NCBI RefSeq assembly: GCF_002932875.1
Contig: NZ_PSWS01000001.1
Span: 52,475 to 116,474 of the forward strand
DNA from: Rathayibacter tritici
GTDB lineage: Bacteria; Actinomycetota; Actinomycetes; Actinomycetales; Microbacteriaceae
Direction of reading: 5' to 3'
DNA: 64,000 bases
The stretch's first letter is position 1; every line of letters starts with the position of its first letter. The translations under genes were made by a program, and so were the position numbers. A model generated the notes under the pieces. It was not told the DNA's origin, searched no databases, and was given only the letters and a program-made list of their open reading frames with translations. This document shows positions 58,147 through 64,000 of the stretch, in pieces.

Positions 58147-58884
58147 GTGCGGCGGGCACTGGCGATCGTCAACGAGCGCGGTGCCGGGCTCGGCGCGCTC
58201 GAGCCGATGCTGACGGCCGAGGGCTTCGTGGTCGACGCCGTCGCCGGGACGGATCTCGACGCGATCGACATCCTCGTCCCCGACCTGGTCATCACGCTCG
58301 GCTCCAGCGCCGGCGTCTACGAGACCTCGCGACACCCCTTCATCAACCCCGAGATCGCCCTCCTGCAGGACCGGCTGCACCACCGCCGTCCCACCCTCGG
58401 CGTCTGCTTCGGTGCGCAACTGATCGCGTCGGCCCTCGGTGAGTCAGTGCACCCCGGAGCGACCCGCGAGGTCGGCTTCCGCTCCATCGTGCTCACGGAG
58501 GCGGGCGCGCGCTCCCCGCTGCGCCACCTCGCCACTGTCGACGTCATGCAGTGGCACGGCGACACCTTCGCTCTGCCGCTCGGAGCCGCACTGCTGGCCT
58601 CGTCGCCGGCGGGCGAGGTGGAGGCGTTCGCGGTCGAGGACTGGCTGCTCGCCGTGCAGTTCCACCCGGAGCTGACCGGCGCGATGGCGGCGCAGTGGCT
58701 CGAGGGCGACGGGGAGTATGCGGGAGCGGCGGGCTACGACGCGGCAGTTCTCGCTGGCGACCTCGCGGTCGGCCGGTTCGAGCGGATGCACGCGGCGACG
58801 CGGCTCGCACTCGCCGAGTGGCTGCGCGCTCCGAGCGGAGGGCGGTCGCCGTCAGCGGCGCGAGGCGAAGAAGTCGAGCAGTAG
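58147..58884 (+). CDS. Class I glutamine amidotransferase-like protein
   Basis: 245 aa with an intact triad: Cys87 in TLGVCFGAQLIASALG, His173 and Glu175 in AVQFHPELTG. It lacks a synthetase domain, so it is of the GuaA-N/YfeJ-like type of stand-alone amidotransferases of unknown acceptor. GTG 58147 is 1-2 bp after the CDF gene, hence the same transcript. Its last 33 bp overlap the end of convergent tadA. Confidence 0.9.
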   Translation: MRRALAIVNERGAGLGALEPMLTAEGFVVDAVAGTDLDAIDILVPDLVITLGSSAGVYETSRHPFINPEIALLQDRLHHRRPTLGVCFGAQLIASALGESVHPGATREVGFRSIVLTEAGARSPLRHLATVDVMQWHGDTFALPLGAALLASSPAGEVEAFAVEDWLLAVQFHPELTGAMAAQWLEGDGEYAGAAGYDAAVLAGDLAVGRFERMHAATRLALAEWLRAPSGGRSPSAARGEEVEQ

Positions 58885-59328
58885 CCGCGAGCTCTCCTCG
58901 GCACGCACCCCGGGGTATACCTCGACCACGTGATTGTGCCGGCGGTCGCGGAGGAGGTCGTGCACCGATCCCGACGCCCCGGCCTTCTCATCCCATGCTC
59001 CGAACACGACCCGCTCGATCCGTGCCGCGAGGATCGCACCTGCGCAGAGCACACACGGCTCCAGGGTGACCACCAGTGTGCAGCCCTCGAGATGCCAGTC
59101 GCCCCGAGCCTGGGCCGCCGCGCGGATCGCGACCACCTCGGCATGGGCCGTCGGGTCCCGGCGCAACTCCCGCTCGTTGCGCCCGAGCCCGAGCACGGCG
59201 CCCTCCGAGTCCAGCACCACCGCGCCCACCGGGACGTCTCCCCAACCGCAGGCCCGACGCGCCTCGTCGAGAGCCAGGCCCATCCACTCGTCGGAGTGCG
59301 GGGGGACGCGCAGATCGCTGTCGCGCAT
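58852..59328 (-). CDS. tadA: tRNA adenosine(34) deaminase
   Basis: 158 aa of the cytidine-deaminase fold. Zinc ligands H62 (TAHAEVVAI, with the proton-shuttling E64) and C92/C95 (LEPCVLCAGAIL). It converts A34 of tRNA-Arg(ACG) to inosine. ATG 59328 is preferred, as upstream codons are not conserved. Divergent from upp and overlapping the amidotransferase gene at its 3' end. Confidence 0.93.
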   Translation of the reverse strand: MRDSDLRVPPHSDEWMGLALDEARRACGWGDVPVGAVVLDSEGAVLGLGRNERELRRDPTAHAEVVAIRAAAQARGDWHLEGCTLVVTLEPCVLCAGAILAARIERVVFGAWDEKAGASGSVHDLLRDRRHNHVVEVYPGVRAEESSRLLLDFFASRR

Positions 59329-59398
59329 CGCTCCCCCCTCCCGCGGTCGCTGCCCCGCTCGGGCCGGTCGGTACGACCGCGGCCAGTAGATTGAGCTT

Positions 59399-60034
59399 AT
59401 GCGCGTCCACGTAGCCGACCACCCGCTGATCACCCACAAGCTCACCGTGCTTCGTGACAAGCGCACTCCCTCCCCTACTTTCCGTCAGCTCGCCGAAGAG
59501 CTGATGACGCTCCTCGCCTACGAAGCCACCCGCGGCGTCCGCACCCGCACCGTCACCATCGACACTCCTGTGACGCAGACCACCGGCCTCGCGCTCAGCG
59601 ACCCGCAGCCGCTCGTCGTCCCGATCCTCCGCGCAGGTCTCGGCATGCTCGAGGGCATGGTCAAGCTGATCCCGACCGCCGAGGTCGGCTTCCTGGGCAT
59701 GGCGCGCAATGAGGAAACCCTCGAGCCGACCACGTACGCCGAGCGACTGCCCGAGGACCTGTCGAATCGGCAGTGCTTCGTCCTGGACCCGATGCTCGCG
59801 ACCGGCGGCTCGCTCATTGCCGCCATCCAGTTCCTCTTCGACCGCGGGGCCGTGGATGTCACCGCCGTCTGCCTCCTCGCCGCCCCCGAGGGTCTGGCCG
59901 CCGTCGAGAAGGCCTTCGGCGACCGCGACGTGACCATCGTCCTCGGCTCCCTCGACGAGAAGCTCAACGAGCTCGGCTACATCGTGCCGGGCTTGGGTGA
60001 CGCGGGCGACCGCCTCTACGGTCTGGCGGGCTGA
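59399..60034 (+). CDS. upp: Uracil phosphoribosyltransferase
   Basis: 211 aa, the normal UPRT length. [20 protein letters not shown] at the start, [13 protein letters not shown], the PRPP-binding loop [18 protein letters not shown], and the uracil-binding C-terminus [18 protein letters not shown]. Salvages uracil to UMP. TAGATT (59387-59392) is 6 nt before the ATG, so leaderless. Confidence 0.95.
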
Positions 60035-60189
60035 CCCCGCGGGCTGCGGAGCCCGCGTCAGGCACCTTCCGCTCGAGCGGCCCGGGCCCCGGTTCCCCTC
60101 GCCCAGCCCTGAGCCGCGTTCCGCGCCAGATCGATCGCTGTCCTCCGTGCGTCTCTATTCTCGTGACATTCACTCACGAAGGAGGCGCG

Positions 60190-62244
60190 ATGGAGTTCCG
60201 TTTCGACGACGCGACGGCCGACGACCTGGCGAAGACTCTGCGCAACGCCAGCGATTCGCTGAGGGATCACGGAGTCGCCTGGAGCGGCGCGATGGGCACG
60301 GCCGTAGAGCACTTCACCGGCCCGTACGCCGATCTGTTCCGCACCGCCTGCATCGTCGGCTCCGAGAACCGGGTCGGCCTCTCCCGGTCGCTCTGGGACC
60401 TGGCCGACCGTATCTGCGAGACGTCGTACGCCGCTCAGAAGGAGCGGGCTCGCATCGCCGCACTCGAGGCCTGGAACGTGCGCGAGGCCGAGCGGGAGCA
60501 GCGCCGACGTTCTCATCCGCTCGCCGGCCTCGGCGTCCAGCCCGACGAGGGGATGCTGGTCGATCCGCGTCCGTCCGAGGACCGGATTCCTGCGCCGGTC
60601 ATCAACGCCGGCTTCGCGATCCAGGAGCCGCCGCGAACGACGACGCAGCATTCGGGCCCACTCGGGCACGGCAGGACCTCCGCCGACCCGGACGATCTCG
60701 TCGTCTACGCATCGACGGCGCGGGCGTTCGGCGCGCTGATGCAGGAGCGGCTGACCAGCGTCCGCGCCTCCTGGGCGTCTTTCACGGACGCGTGCTCCTG
60801 GGTCCCGATCGAGAACTGCACCTTCCTGAACGCCTTCGAGCGCTTCGTGACCGTGAACGGCGAGGAGGCCAGTTGGGTCGAGGCGATCGCCGACGCATTC
60901 CGCGCGGCCGGGGGTGGTTCACTCTCCTCGGCGGGTCTCGATCTCGCTCGAACCCGATTCGCTCCCCCCACCGATCAGGCGCTGCGCGCCATCCTCGCGT
61001 CCGTCCCCGCGGGAGACCTCGCGGCGATGCTCGCGGCGTCGCCCGCTCTGGCCGCGCAGATCCAGAGAATGCCACCCGCCGTCGTACACGAATGGTGGCA
61101 GAGCCTTGACCCCGCAGCCGACTCTGTCGATCCGTTCTCGTCCCGCCAGCACGAGCTGCTGACGGCGCTGCCGCTGGTGATCGGGAATCTCGAGGGCATT
61201 CCCTACGGTGCCCGGTCGGTGGCGAACGCGTTCCGCCTCGAGGCGGAGCTCGCGAGCCTGACCGCCGAGCGGGACGCCCTGCGCGCGATCACTCCGGGCA
61301 CGGGCAGTGCCGACGCTGTGGGGCCGGCTCTCGCGGACATCGAGCGACGACTCGCCGTCCTCGCGAACATTCACGATTCCCTGGCGTCGTTCGAAGGCCG
61401 GAACCCCAGGTTCCTGATCTCGCTGACCGACGACGACCCGCCCCTGGCCGCGGTCTCGATCGGCGACCTCGACACCGCGACCGACGTCACCTACGCGGTC
61501 CCCGGGATGGGGCAGACGACCGCGACGACGACCGACTGGACGAGAGCCTCGCAGAACCTGCAGTCGCTGCTGCCGCCGGGGCACGCGGTCGTCGCCTGGA
61601 TCGGCTACGAGACGCCGCCCAATCCGATCGGCGTCGACCTGGACATGTCGGTGCTCACTACGGACGACGCGGTCGCAGGCGCCACCCGCCTCGCCGCCGC
61701 TCTCGGCGGACTCGCCGCCGTCCGCGGGGACTCGATCCCCCACCCGAACGTCGTCGCGCACTCCTACGGCAGCACCGTCGCCGCCGTCGCGGCGACCCGA
61801 CCGGACGTGCAGCTCGGCTCCCTGATCACTCTCGGCTCCGCGGGGCTCCCCGACTCTGTCGACAACGCATCCGATCTTCACGCCGACGGCGTCTACGCCG
61901 GCCAGGGCCGCCCCAAGTTCCCCGGAGAGAACAGCAGCGGCGACGAGCTGGCCTATGTGGGACGGGGGGCGAGTGAGGATCACCATGTGAATCCCGTCCT
62001 GCCGGGGTTCGGAGCCCACGTCTTCGGAGTCGAGAACGGTGGCGACAACGGTCGGCCGGTCTCGGCCCACGGGGCGGTGGAGAGCGATACGGGCGACAGG
62101 GCGGGGTACTTCGACGTGAAAACGGAGTCACTCAACAACGTTGCCCGGATCTTGCGAGGCGATCTGGACTCCGTGACTGACTACGTGCCGCTGGGGCCCA
62201 CAGAGTTGCAGAAACGGGTAGGAGAGCTTGTTGATGGCGACTAA
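60190..62244 (+). CDS. WXG100-like/alpha-beta hydrolase (DUF1023-like) protein
   Basis: 684 aa. ATG 60190 follows GAAGGAGG. Residues 1-100 are a WXG100/ESX-like helical hairpin (HGVAWSGAMGTAVEHF). Residues of about 180-260 form another helical region (LTSVRASWASFTDACSW). The last 280 residues resemble DUF1023 alpha/beta hydrolases: YAVPGMGQTTATTTDWTRAS, AWIGYETPPNP, the nucleophile Ser525 in VVAHSYGSTVAA, and LGSAGLPDSV. No signal peptide. Actinobacterial proteins of this kind may be exported by type VII secretion or act at the envelope as esterases; neither is proven. It overlaps the following lipoprotein gene by 11 bp. Confidence 0.8.
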   Translation: MEFRFDDATADDLAKTLRNASDSLRDHGVAWSGAMGTAVEHFTGPYADLFRTACIVGSENRVGLSRSLWDLADRICETSYAAQKERARIAALEAWNVREAEREQRRRSHPLAGLGVQPDEGMLVDPRPSEDRIPAPVINAGFAIQEPPRTTTQHSGPLGHGRTSADPDDLVVYASTARAFGALMQERLTSVRASWASFTDACSWVPIENCTFLNAFERFVTVNGEEASWVEAIADAFRAAGGGSLSSAGLDLARTRFAPPTDQALRAILASVPAGDLAAMLAASPALAAQIQRMPPAVVHEWWQSLDPAADSVDPFSSRQHELLTALPLVIGNLEGIPYGARSVANAFRLEAELASLTAERDALRAITPGTGSADAVGPALADIERRLAVLANIHDSLASFEGRNPRFLISLTDDDPPLAAVSIGDLDTATDVTYAVPGMGQTTATTTDWTRASQNLQSLLPPGHAVVAWIGYETPPNPIGVDLDMSVLTTDDAVAGATRLAAALGGLAAVRGDSIPHPNVVAHSYGSTVAAVAATRPDVQLGSLITLGSAGLPDSVDNASDLHADGVYAGQGRPKFPGENSSGDELAYVGRGASEDHHVNPVLPGFGAHVFGVENGGDNGRPVSAHGAVESDTGDRAGYFDVKTESLNNVARILRGDLDSVTDYVPLGPTELQKRVGELVDGD

Positions 62245-62896
62245 AGCTGAGAGAAGAAGGGGCATCGTTGCAACGGGCGGGCTCGCCGTCGTCCTGCTCC
62301 TGACGTCAGCCTGCGCAGCCGAGAATCCGGAGGAACCGACACCGATGACCACCACGACACCTACCGAGGGACGAGCTTCGATTATCGCGTTCGTTAAAGA
62401 CACCACCCAGCAGCTCGACATCACGGGCTGGTGGCCCAAGTCCGGCGGCGCGGCACCCGACAGCTGCGGACTCGGCGGCGGAGAGAAAGGAGCCAGCTAC
62501 AGCTTCGACCATTGGGCGCCCCGCGGAACCGATCCCGCCGGCGACGCCCGAAAGGTTGCCACCTACTGGGAATCCCTCGGCATGAGCGTCCGCATCGCCG
62601 ACTCCACCCCCTGGCCCACCGTCTACGGAGAAGGCGGCCCCGTCCTCCGCGCCGACTTCGACACCCATTCCGCCGAAGACACCTATCGGGTCGGCGCCGT
62701 CGCGCGCTGCGCGCCCGGCGACGCCATCGCCCTGCTCAAGGAGGACAACGCGCAACGCGCCGCCGGAATCGTCGTCCCCGGAGACGAAGGCACCATCCCC
62801 CGCTGGGACCCGAAAAAGAAATACACCCTCGAGCCCGTCGCACCCGCCACCACCCCACCGAAACCCGAACCCGATCCCGACGAGCCCGAGCAATGA
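62234..62896 (+). CDS. Lipoprotein of unknown function, copy 1
   Basis: About 220 aa. ATG 62234 lies inside the hydrolase gene's end, after GGAGAG. Lipoprotein-like signal ending LLLTSAC (Cys27). Mature domain: DTTQQLDITGWWPKSGGAAP, CGLGGGEKGASYSFDHWAP, ATYWESLGMSVRIADST and RCAPGDAIALLKEDNAQRAA, with three conserved Cys. A Pro-rich tail ends the protein. No known family was recognised. It is followed by a close paralogue, so a tandem duplication occurred. Coupling to the hydrolase gene suggests a partner or immunity role (inference). Confidence 0.8.
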   Translation: MATKAERRRGIVATGGLAVVLLLTSACAAENPEEPTPMTTTTPTEGRASIIAFVKDTTQQLDITGWWPKSGGAAPDSCGLGGGEKGASYSFDHWAPRGTDPAGDARKVATYWESLGMSVRIADSTPWPTVYGEGGPVLRADFDTHSAEDTYRVGAVARCAPGDAIALLKEDNAQRAAGIVVPGDEGTIPRWDPKKKYTLEPVAPATTPPKPEPDPDEPEQ

Positions 62897-62933: not shown

Positions 62934-63560
62934 GTGACCAGGACTCCTCCACGACGAGGTACCGCCGCGGCGAGCGTTCTCGCCGCAATCCTGCTCCTGA
63001 CGTCCGCCTGCGCCGCCGAGAATCCGGAGGAACCGACACCGGTGACCACCATGACACCCACCGAGGGACGCACCGCGCTCATCGCGTTCGTCAAAGACAC
63101 CACCCGGCAGCTCGACATCACGGGCTGGTGGCCCAAGTCCGGCGGCGCGGCACCCGACAGCTGCGGACTCGGCGGCGGAGAGAAAGGCGCCAGCTACAGC
63201 TTCGACCATTGGGCGCCCCGCGGAACCGATCCCGCCGGCGACGCCCGAAAGGTAGCCACCTACTGGGAATCCCTCGGCATGAGCGTCCGCATCGCCGACT
63301 CCACCCCCTGGCCCAGAGTGTTCGGCGAAGGCGGCCCCGTCCTCCGCGCCGCCTTCGATACCAAAGCCGGAGAAGACACCTACCGGGTCGGCGCAACCGC
63401 GCGCTGCGCGCCCGGCGACGCCATCGCCCTGCTCAAGGAGGACAACGCGCAACGCGCCGCCGGAATCGTCGTCCCCGGAGACGAAGGCACCATCCCCCGC
63501 TGGGACCCGAAGAAGAAATACACCCTCGAGCCCGTCGCACCCGCGGAACCCGCAGGATGA
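62934..63560 (+). CDS. Lipoprotein of unknown function, copy 2
   Basis: 208 aa from GTG 62934 (GGAG at 62920-62923). Same architecture as copy 1: signal with LLLTSAC (Cys26), AENPEEPTP, and an almost identical mature domain. The nucleotide sequences are nearly the same from about 62990 to 63540 versus 62294 to 62845, with clustered changes in the WPTVYGEGGPVLRADFDTHS versus WPRVFGEGGPVLRAAFDTKA stretch. The tail is shorter. Copy divergence is small, so the duplication is recent or the copies convert each other. Confidence 0.8.
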   Translation: MTRTPPRRGTAAASVLAAILLLTSACAAENPEEPTPVTTMTPTEGRTALIAFVKDTTRQLDITGWWPKSGGAAPDSCGLGGGEKGASYSFDHWAPRGTDPAGDARKVATYWESLGMSVRIADSTPWPRVFGEGGPVLRAAFDTKAGEDTYRVGATARCAPGDAIALLKEDNAQRAAGIVVPGDEGTIPRWDPKKKYTLEPVAPAEPAG

Positions 63561-63628: not shown

Positions 63629-63658
63629 TTGACGCACGGCACCAGCCTGGGCTTTACT
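63629..63658 (+). promoter_or_regulatory. Predicted promoter of the Met/Cys leader ORF
   Basis: -35 TTGACG (63629-63634), 18-bp spacer and -10 TTTACT (63653-63658). The ATG begins 8 nt after the -10 box, so the transcript would start at or next to the ATG. Confidence 0.55.
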
Positions 63659-63665
63659 GTCGAGC

Positions 63666-63767
63666 ATGACTGACACCCTGCACGCCCTGACCTCCCTCGA
63701 GGCCTCCGGGAATGCCGGCATGATGATGGCCGGTGGCCCCGTCATGTGCTGTCGAATGTGTGCATGA
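63666..63767 (+). CDS. 33-residue Met/Cys-rich leaderless ORF (candidate leader peptide)
   Basis: ATG 63666 to TGA 63767. The first 18 residues are unremarkable (TDTLHALTSLEASGNAG); the rest is packed with sulfur amino acids: an MMM run and the end GPVMCCRMCA, giving six Met and three Cys in 33 residues. There is no ribosome-binding site; the -10 box is 8 nt away. This matches leaderless Cys-rich upstream ORFs known to control sulfur genes in mycobacteria. 200 bp of leader follow, then the next gene. A RiPP precursor is the alternative, but no modifying enzyme is visible. Confidence 0.5.
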   Translation: MTDTLHALTSLEASGNAGMMMAGGPVMCCRMCA

Positions 63768-63805
63768 GGAACTGACCTCGCCGGATCCCCGCATCGCCTC
63801 CGCCC

Positions 63806-63824
63806 GCTGATCCTCTCGATCAGC
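63806..63824 (+). promoter_or_regulatory. Hairpin in the leader after the Met/Cys ORF
   Basis: GCTGATC-CTCTC-GATCAGC, perfect 7-bp arms, 39 bp beyond the ORF stop. It could be part of an attenuator; no T-run follows. The remaining leader up to 63967 has more GATC/GGATCC inverted repeats but no clear single structure. Confidence 0.35.
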
Positions 63825-63967
63825 TGAGCGTCGCAGGCGCGGACGATCCCCTGGATGCCCTGCATCCGTCTCTGCCGTTACCGCGCTTCGCGGATCGGCT
63901 CGATCGCGCACACCCGGATCCGCCCCCACGGACACTCGTCCCGGATCCGACCAGCCAAGGACTCGTC

Positions 63968-64000
63968 ATGACCCTCCTCCACCCCCGCACCGTCCCCACC
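63968..64000 (+). CDS. Start of a gene cut by the window edge
   Basis: ATG 63968 preceded by AAGGA with a 6-nt gap. Only eleven codons (MTLLHPRTVPT) are visible, so the product cannot be named. If the Met/Cys ORF is a leader peptide, this gene should belong to sulfur uptake or assimilation. Confidence 0.5.
   Translation, partial: MTLLHPRTVPT

Follow-up and report, generated by a model that had tools for sequence, protein, structure and literature searches.

A candidate leaderless Cys-codon leader peptide with a conserved CGA-ATG pair ahead of a winged-helix regulator gene in Rathayibacter tritici and its relatives

The analysed window is a stretch of 64,000 nucleotides from Rathayibacter tritici (contig NZ_PSWS01000001.1). 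Its right end contains a short ORF with its own putative promoter, an untranslated spacer, and the beginning of a regulator gene. The features are listed below; counts over 71 leaders refer to the set defined further on.

59399–60034, + strand: upp (uracil phosphoribosyltransferase; our naming), the usual upstream neighbour, outside the proposed mechanism
63629–63634, + strand: putative −35 element (TTGACG) in the leader promoter, 37 nt upstream of the start codon; position conserved in relatives
63653–63658, + strand: putative −10 element TTTACT, 7 nt before the ATG; read from the sequence, at the equivalent place in relatives
63666–63767, + strand: leaderless leader-peptide ORF, 33 codons and TGA; from sequence, translation and homologues
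63720–63728, + strand: MMM codons ATGATGATG; ATGATG present in 62 of 71 leaders
63747–63761, + strand: proposed stall cassette TGC TGT CGA ATG TGT (Cys-Cys-Arg-Met-Cys), with CGA and ATG invariant in all 71 leaders
63768–63967, + strand: untranslated spacer, C-rich and G-poor (rut-like, by C-G skew), without a U-tailed terminator
63915–63949, + strand: inverted repeat CGGATCCG (63915–63922) / CGGATCCG (63942–63949) ahead of the Shine-Dalgarno (SD) sequence; from sequence, fold z −2.6
63957–63961, + strand: SD sequence AAGGA of the regulator gene; from sequence, conserved in relatives
63968–64000, + strand: beginning of a regulator gene of the winged-helix kind (PF00486, GlnR/PhoB-type), truncated where the window ends; from comparison with loci L235 and L003

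The leader ORF, from the ATG at 63666 to the TGA at 63767, translates as MTDTLHALTSLEASGNAGMMMAGGPVMCCRMCA, with the M-C-C-R-M-C-A codons at 63744–63764. The first-pass annotation had described it as a Met/Cys-rich ORF of 33 codons with an MMM run and a CCRMC end; it was present as claimed, with homologues throughout the family. Pfam gave no match for the ORF, and NCBIfam at E ≤ 10 gave none for it or for ten relatives, very short ORFs being hard to match. NCBIfam holds models of the mycobacterial leaderless Cys-rich attenuator ORFs. Two sub-threshold Rfam matches were taken as chance, and none lay above threshold. The relative L235, about 91% identical in DNA, showed 0 differences from the window in the 102-nt leader ORF and about 14 in the 200-nt spacer.

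The regulator gene starts at the ATG at 63968–63970 and runs off the window. Its first 11 residues (MTLLHPRTVPT) are identical in L235, which has the full regulator gene behind a leader identical to that of the window. The orthologue in L003 contains a Trans_reg_C domain (PF00486, E 3e-22), and the nearest solved structures, by sequence and fold, include DNA-binding domains of GlnR (47% identity) and PhoB. No receiver domain was matched in the orthologue by Pfam at E ≤ 1. The regulator model, built with 52 aligned orthologues, had a mean pLDDT of 79.7 and a pTM of 0.49, and its N-terminal part consisted of helices only. The best Foldseek matches were isolated DNA-binding domains; the longer matches, to full-length regulators, had rmsd of ~6–14. 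A new gene with a good ribosome-binding site had thus been correctly anticipated after the leader (AAGGA at 63957–63961, ATG at 63968), and the sulfur gene expected there turned out to be a PF00486 winged-helix regulator gene. The downstream gene lies outside the known sulfur genes, which we counted against the Cys-attenuator model presented below.

The window Upp is 98–99% identical to those of Rathayibacter tanaceti (L001), Rathayibacter sp. Leaf185 (L002) and VKM Ac-2754 (L003). Between upp and the leader, the window also contains a 693-aa ORF (60163–62244, hydrolase-like by eye) and two tandem, nearly identical lipoprotein-like genes (62228–62896 and 62934–63560). L235 carries three lipoprotein-like copies, L001 seems, by eye, to retain a decayed remnant of this region, and in L002 and L003 upp is close to the leader. 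A link between the leader and cysK/cysE was dropped; these genes were found a few kb away only in the Rathayibacter loci L002 and L003.

The comparison started from 81 entries with the regulator, one of them the window, and a leader was picked ahead of it in 77. Removal of three entries in which the wrong ORF had been picked (L014, L031, L104) and of three tail-less ones (L015, L019, L033) left 71 leaders, among them that of the window and two from a second family (L107, L108). These loci are related by descent; hence the counts given below are not independent events, and the p values ignore kinship. No leader was picked in L095, L106, L109 and L110, of which L110 has a diverged one and L095 is cut by a contig end.

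The proposal that a promoter places the transcript start at the ATG was supported by this comparison. The best TTGACA-like box began 36–37 nt before the leader start codon in 67/71 loci, with 6/6 matching bases in 59/71 and 5/6 in 10/71; shuffled upstream regions gave 6/6 in 4/71 and 5/6 in 20/71. Position −1 was C or T in all 71 loci, and an SD-like motif preceded the start in only 2/71. Because of the box spacing, the pyrimidine at −1 and the rarity of SD-like motifs, the leader looks leaderless, and its transcript is predicted to start at the A of the ATG in the window. A consensus promoter scan of the window reported no site at its thresholds.

In Microbacteriaceae, the leader homologues end CCRMC[A/R]*, and the N-terminal pattern LTS.EA.G.AGMMM is widely kept. 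A scan of 80 upp loci from named genomes for the C-terminal motif found it in 59, including those of Rathayibacter, Cryobacterium, Leifsonia, Herbiconiux, Agreia, Subtercola, Frigoribacterium, Salinibacterium, Glaciihabitans and Agromyces; L014 and L032 carry variants. Of the 21 upp loci without a motif match, 13 are from Microbacterium. In two Microbacterium genomes (L085, L086), the leader adjoins the regulator, away from upp. Conservation of the CCxMC C-terminus in other Microbacteriaceae, which the first-pass annotation had suggested looking for, was therefore found, and an altered form occurs in the second family.

The tail pattern TGTTGYCGAATGNNNNNNTRR was present in 99/199 Microbacteriaceae genomes, once only in 91 of them; the reversed pattern, used as a control, occurred in 3/199. 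Of 30 matches examined, 27 stood ahead of the regulator and one (L120) near a contig end. The other two (L124, L133) had no ORF and look like chance, so part of the 99 genomes must be chance as well. The regulator itself was found in 193/199 genomes (E ≤ 1e-45). From the 95 regulator-bearing genomes without a strict tail-pattern match, 40 regions were picked by the analyst, two of which (G168, G201) do have a strict match elsewhere in the genome. In all 40, a short upstream ORF was seen that has Arg-Met at its core and one or more Cys close to its end; the picked start is uncertain in L212, L220, L229 and L230. Since 40/40 further regulator loci carry one, the leader appears to be close to universal wherever the regulator occurs in the genomes examined. 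Five of these loci, from genomes of ~1.5–2.2 Mb (L225, L226, L228–L230), have a Cys run after Arg-Met (RMCCC) and keep CGA-ATG.

The tail has gone in Microcella/Yonghaparkia (L015, L019, L033), where the leader retains its promoter and N-terminal half and has lost the Cys tail and CGAATG. The spacer in this clade is only 43 nt (L015) and 34 nt (L033), compared to 125–309 nt between leader stop and regulator start in the 71 loci. We count this natural loss in favour of the attenuator model presented below. Clades in which the cassette is lost or rearranged offer a natural comparison set.

Outside Microbacteriaceae, 149 genomes of the order were searched and the regulator was found in 24 (E ≤ 1e-35); no leader was seen in L106, L109 and L111 from this search. 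In the second family (that of genome G091, probably Micrococcaceae), the regulator is present in 61/61 genomes, and 26 of 29 freshly examined loci have a leader ending in Cys and Arg-Met, e.g. CCCRMQA. Among these 29 loci, no leader was found in L167 and L171, and L154 keeps Arg-Met without the Cys run. A third family (that of genome G092) has the regulator in 24/41 genomes. Its leaders, read by eye in ~10 of the 19 loci L176–L194, look different, as with MTYSTHSARMRSAYMCMPCVRCR in L188 or the Cys run ending CGCCCCL in L184. Much of this family has Cys codons near the stop and CGAATG further upstream; within 600 nt upstream, CGAATG is missing from 7 of the 19 loci, and L113 has CGC-ATG in place of CGA-ATG.

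As read from these sequences, Cys near the stop is common to the leaders seen across families and the surrounding peptide is not (CCRMCR, CCCRMQA, MCMPCVRCR, CGCCCCL). Because the peptide around the Cys residues varies and the Cys residues stay, reading of the codons fits better than a fixed arrest peptide. Met and Cys occur together across families, as the first-pass annotation had stressed for the window; the strongest constraint, however, is in two families the CGA-ATG pair, which had gone unnoticed.

The Arg codon before the last Met was CGA in 71/71 leaders, which had been picked by protein-level rules, and Met followed it directly in all of them. As background, CGA accounts for 5.4% of Arg codons when the regulator and upp genes are counted, and for 7.1% over a wider set of ORFs. 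The same codon was found in 40/40 leader ORFs of the further regulator-bearing genomes and in 33/35 Arg-Met ORFs of additional loci, the 33 coming from 31 distinct loci; the two exceptions, in L155 and L160, are additional and unrelated ORFs. A variant tail pattern with CGC, CGG or CGT gave one match in 199 genomes (G158, L141), and G158 also has a true leader; this pattern also fixes TGY after the ATG and is not the tail pattern with one codon changed. The first Cys of the cassette was less constant (61/71). Of the leaders, 70/71 had 2–4 Cys codons in the last eight, and 67/71 had none elsewhere. About 68% of the leader Cys codons are TGT, versus 7–8% elsewhere.

We considered whether CGAATG and its flanks are bound by the regulator or some other protein, or take part in an RNA-RNA contact, with the peptide incidental. 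Constancy at the nucleotide level in all 71 loci would be expected of such a site, as would locus L102 (same genome as L166), which keeps CGAATG out of frame with the GTG start of its relatives; direct GTTAC repeats upstream in the second family also point this way. However, the Arg-Met codons of the 71 leaders are in frame with the Cys codons, the stop codon lies three codons past the Met, and ORF lengths (25–44 aa) shift by whole codons, while much of the third family keeps Cys near the stop with CGAATG displaced. We therefore regard a binding site as improbable. Selection on the ORF as a peptide is moderate, which we counted against the Cys-attenuator model: the synonymous fraction was 0.40 vs 0.23 expected (162 pairs of 35 leaders), and the differences in the first 26 codons of the same pairs were distributed almost equally among the three codon positions (907, 815 and 912).

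A small functional protein made together with the regulator, e.g. a metal- or redox-binding micropeptide, was considered as well. Metal binding or the sensing of thiol stress by CCxMC and MMM is conceivable, and the N-terminal pattern is widely kept in Microbacteriaceae. Other families, however, keep Cys near the stop and not that pattern, and protein function leaves the fixed rare codons unexplained; a micropeptide is in our view very improbable.

The spacer of the window is 200 nt long, with a C-G skew of 0.24 (99th percentile of local windows). Over the 71 loci, the mean skew was 0.26, compared to 0.017 (sd 0.09) in 246 control 5′ intergenic gaps, which came from a crude gene caller and may include some of the spacers themselves (p 9e-37, descent uncorrected; 96% of spacers above the control 95th percentile). 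Against equal-length local windows, the skew was at the median 99.3rd percentile (58 loci). Twenty-six second-family spacers averaged 0.247, the lowest being 0.000. To our knowledge, Rho sites have no reliable consensus, and we treat the excess of C over G as suggestive only of Rho. A U-tailed intrinsic terminator was predicted in 1/71 loci, and a scan of the window spacer for a terminator-like site found none; attenuation by an intrinsic terminator and antiterminator was rejected on these grounds.

We tentatively favour a Cys-codon attenuator with Rho-dependent termination ahead of the regulator gene, and would give it not quite an even chance of being right; we infer the stalling, the signal, the part of Rho and the regulon. 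Transcription would start at the ATG, and a ribosome would begin translating the leader immediately. With plentiful Cys-tRNA, it would pass UGC-UGU-CGA-AUG-UGU and terminate at the stop codon just behind, leaving 125–309 nt of C-rich, G-poor RNA on which Rho could load and stop transcription before the regulator. A shortage of Cys-tRNA would instead halt the ribosome in the cassette beside the stop codon, where the slowly read CGA, and perhaps the Met codons, would help to hold it. The halted ribosome would block Rho loading, and the winged-helix regulator would be made and then adjust the uptake or use of reduced sulfur. A rut-like region after the stop, preceded by candidate stall codons, is the arrangement expected of Rho-dependent leader attenuation.

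An alternative is translational attenuation, in which the leader RNA hides the SD sequence of the regulator until stalling of a ribosome at the Cys codons exposes it. The closest experimentally studied relatives, the Cys uORFs of M. smegmatis, are described in the available text of PMC13236596 as attenuating translation and not as depending on Rho. The RNA ahead of the regulator shows some structure. In the window, the first-pass annotation had called the 200-nt leader structured; the length is right and the 68 nt before the SD fold better than shuffles (z −2.6), but no such excess is seen in the middle or at the leader start (z −0.5 each) or in the tail region (z 0.6). The 71 loci gave mean z values of −1.21 before the SD (16/71 below −2), −1.41 in mid-spacer (23/71), −0.87 at the leader start (10/71) and −0.03 at the tail (2/71). 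Other clades have different hairpin-like repeats ahead of the regulator SD, by eye. The final 60 nt ahead of the regulator start are strongly enriched in CATCAT (38 copies in 4473 nt vs 1 in 8960 nt of remaining spacer); it occurs there in 30/71 loci, at shifting positions, and is absent from the window. As local folds beat shuffles somewhat and CATCAT is enriched before the start, some structural role of the leader or spacer RNA is possible.

Pairing between CATCAT and the ATGATG in the Met codons is conceivable, and the tail of L100 (p 0.01), less clearly that of L099 (p 0.06), pairs ~60 nt before the start. The predicted SD accessibility, however, was 0.376 vs 0.368 for shuffles and lower in 32/71 loci, so that the idea of a hidden SD was rejected. 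Tail-spacer pairing, convincing by eye in L099, L004 and L107, also failed against shuffles over the 71 loci (mean duplex z 0.10; p ≤ 0.05 in 2/71). Pairing of the MMM codons with CATCAT was discarded too, as CATCAT was found in 25/62 loci with ATGATG and 5/9 without, and does not track it. We judge translational attenuation unlikely.

The CGA codon is decoded by inosine-34 tRNA-Arg, and its constancy is no requirement of classical Cys attenuation. In the available part of PMC4046918, CGA is described as slowly read and as stalling ribosomes in a his-leader assay. One reading of the constant CGA-AUG is that it is part of the sensor, Cys-tRNA supply and slow inosine-wobble decoding of CGA being read at one spot. 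If so, the regulator would be switched by the combined state of sulfur-amino-acid supply and decoding, and the leader would act as a sensor of codon identity that has stayed the same in two bacterial families but not in all of a third. A tadA-like gene (by eye; 58852–59466, − strand) adjoins upp in the window, ~4 kb and several genes from the leader. We take its product to make the inosine tRNA-Arg that reads CGA, and its proximity to a CGA-bearing leader is probably a coincidence of old gene order. The distance of tadA from the leader and the inconstant CGA-ATG of the third family lower the odds of the CGA-AUG sensor reading, which we consider quite doubtful. Still, one synonymous codon choice frozen in a short leader makes the role of a slow codon in ribosome-based sensing directly testable.

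A more general sensor of translation stress was also weighed. The uORF of whiB7/wblC senses such stress through a terminator and antiterminator. By analogy, any slowing of the ribosome would activate the regulator here, Cys shortage being one cause besides antibiotics, slow CGA decoding or lack of inosine-34 tRNA-Arg. A general sensor would suit the constancy of CGA-ATG (all 71 leaders and the 40 and 33 further leader ORFs), which exceeds that of the first Cys. Yet such a sensor needs no Cys codons, and those near the stop persist despite changed surroundings; the intrinsic terminator usual for the whiB7 system is absent in 70/71 loci, and CGA-ATG is inconstant in the third family. The target is a transcription factor, as with whiB7 in the available text of PMC13236596, where the uORF likewise controls a transcription-factor gene in Actinobacteria; no U-tailed terminator accompanies 70/71 of our loci, in contrast to whiB7/wblC. 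We judge a general stress sensor unlikely.

Several known systems resemble the leader described here. E. coli tnaC is a tryptophan-sensing arrest peptide, in which the ribosome is held at the end of the leader next to a Rho loading region. The proposed arrangement is alike in this respect, but here the peptide context varies and the Cys codons stay. Leaderless Cys-rich uORFs of mycobacteria have reportedly been treated by Canestrari et al. in 2020. Such upstream ORFs are known from the available text of Shell et al. 2015 (PMC4633059), and share with our leaders the leaderless start, a short conserved ORF, a C-terminal Cys cluster and possible attenuation. As far as those texts go, they precede cysA2 and other Cys-metabolic or hypothetical genes, whereas the gene here encodes a winged-helix regulator; the present leaders also differ in the fixed CGA-ATG within the Cys cluster, the Met runs, the sequence and the families concerned.

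A further paper (PMC1262725), in which Leifsonia occurs once and the tna operon is mentioned, predicted Cys leaders for Mycobacterium, Propionibacterium acnes and Bifidobacterium longum. Those leaders also have Cys codons near the stop and no terminator hairpin, and Rho termination was suggested for them. They precede cys operons or cbs, unlike the regulator gene here. In the available text of that paper, the polypyrimidine motifs were not conserved and the authors called the Rho prediction weak; in our case, the excess of C over G is quantified over 71 loci. The uORFC-8-2 motif upstream of cysS in Rhodobacterales, as given in the accessible part of PMC8632094, likewise has two tandem Cys codons and is a presumed sensor, but differs in its intrinsic terminator with a U run, its cysS target and its occurrence in alpha-proteobacteria. 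Among the matches listed in our literature search, titles and abstract openings contained no description of a Cys leader ahead of a winged-helix regulator. By its sequence, the leader peptide is of the known Cys-codon type and new in its target, its families and its frozen CGA codon.

From the codon content, we infer that the leader may sense sulfur supply. PAPS reductase (PF01507) was found in 3/19 Microbacteriaceae genomes searched and in 14/14 control genomes. Nitrite/sulfite reductase domains (PF01077) were matched in 9/19 genomes, adjoining PAPS reductase in two; the remaining matches, in frames of 886–1029 codons, are probably nitrite reductases. Most of the genomes tested thus seem unable to make reduced sulfur from sulfate and to need an outside supply, which makes a sensor of Cys supply plausible. 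The leader also points to an unnamed, near-universal regulator (193/199 Microbacteriaceae genomes, 61/61 in the second family) and suggests its signal.

In many second-family loci (L147–L175), direct repeats such as GTTACTTGC...TTGTTACG (GTTAC) were observed just upstream of the leader start. They resemble the GTnAC half-sites of GlnR-type proteins, and the winged-helix regulator may control its own expression through them.
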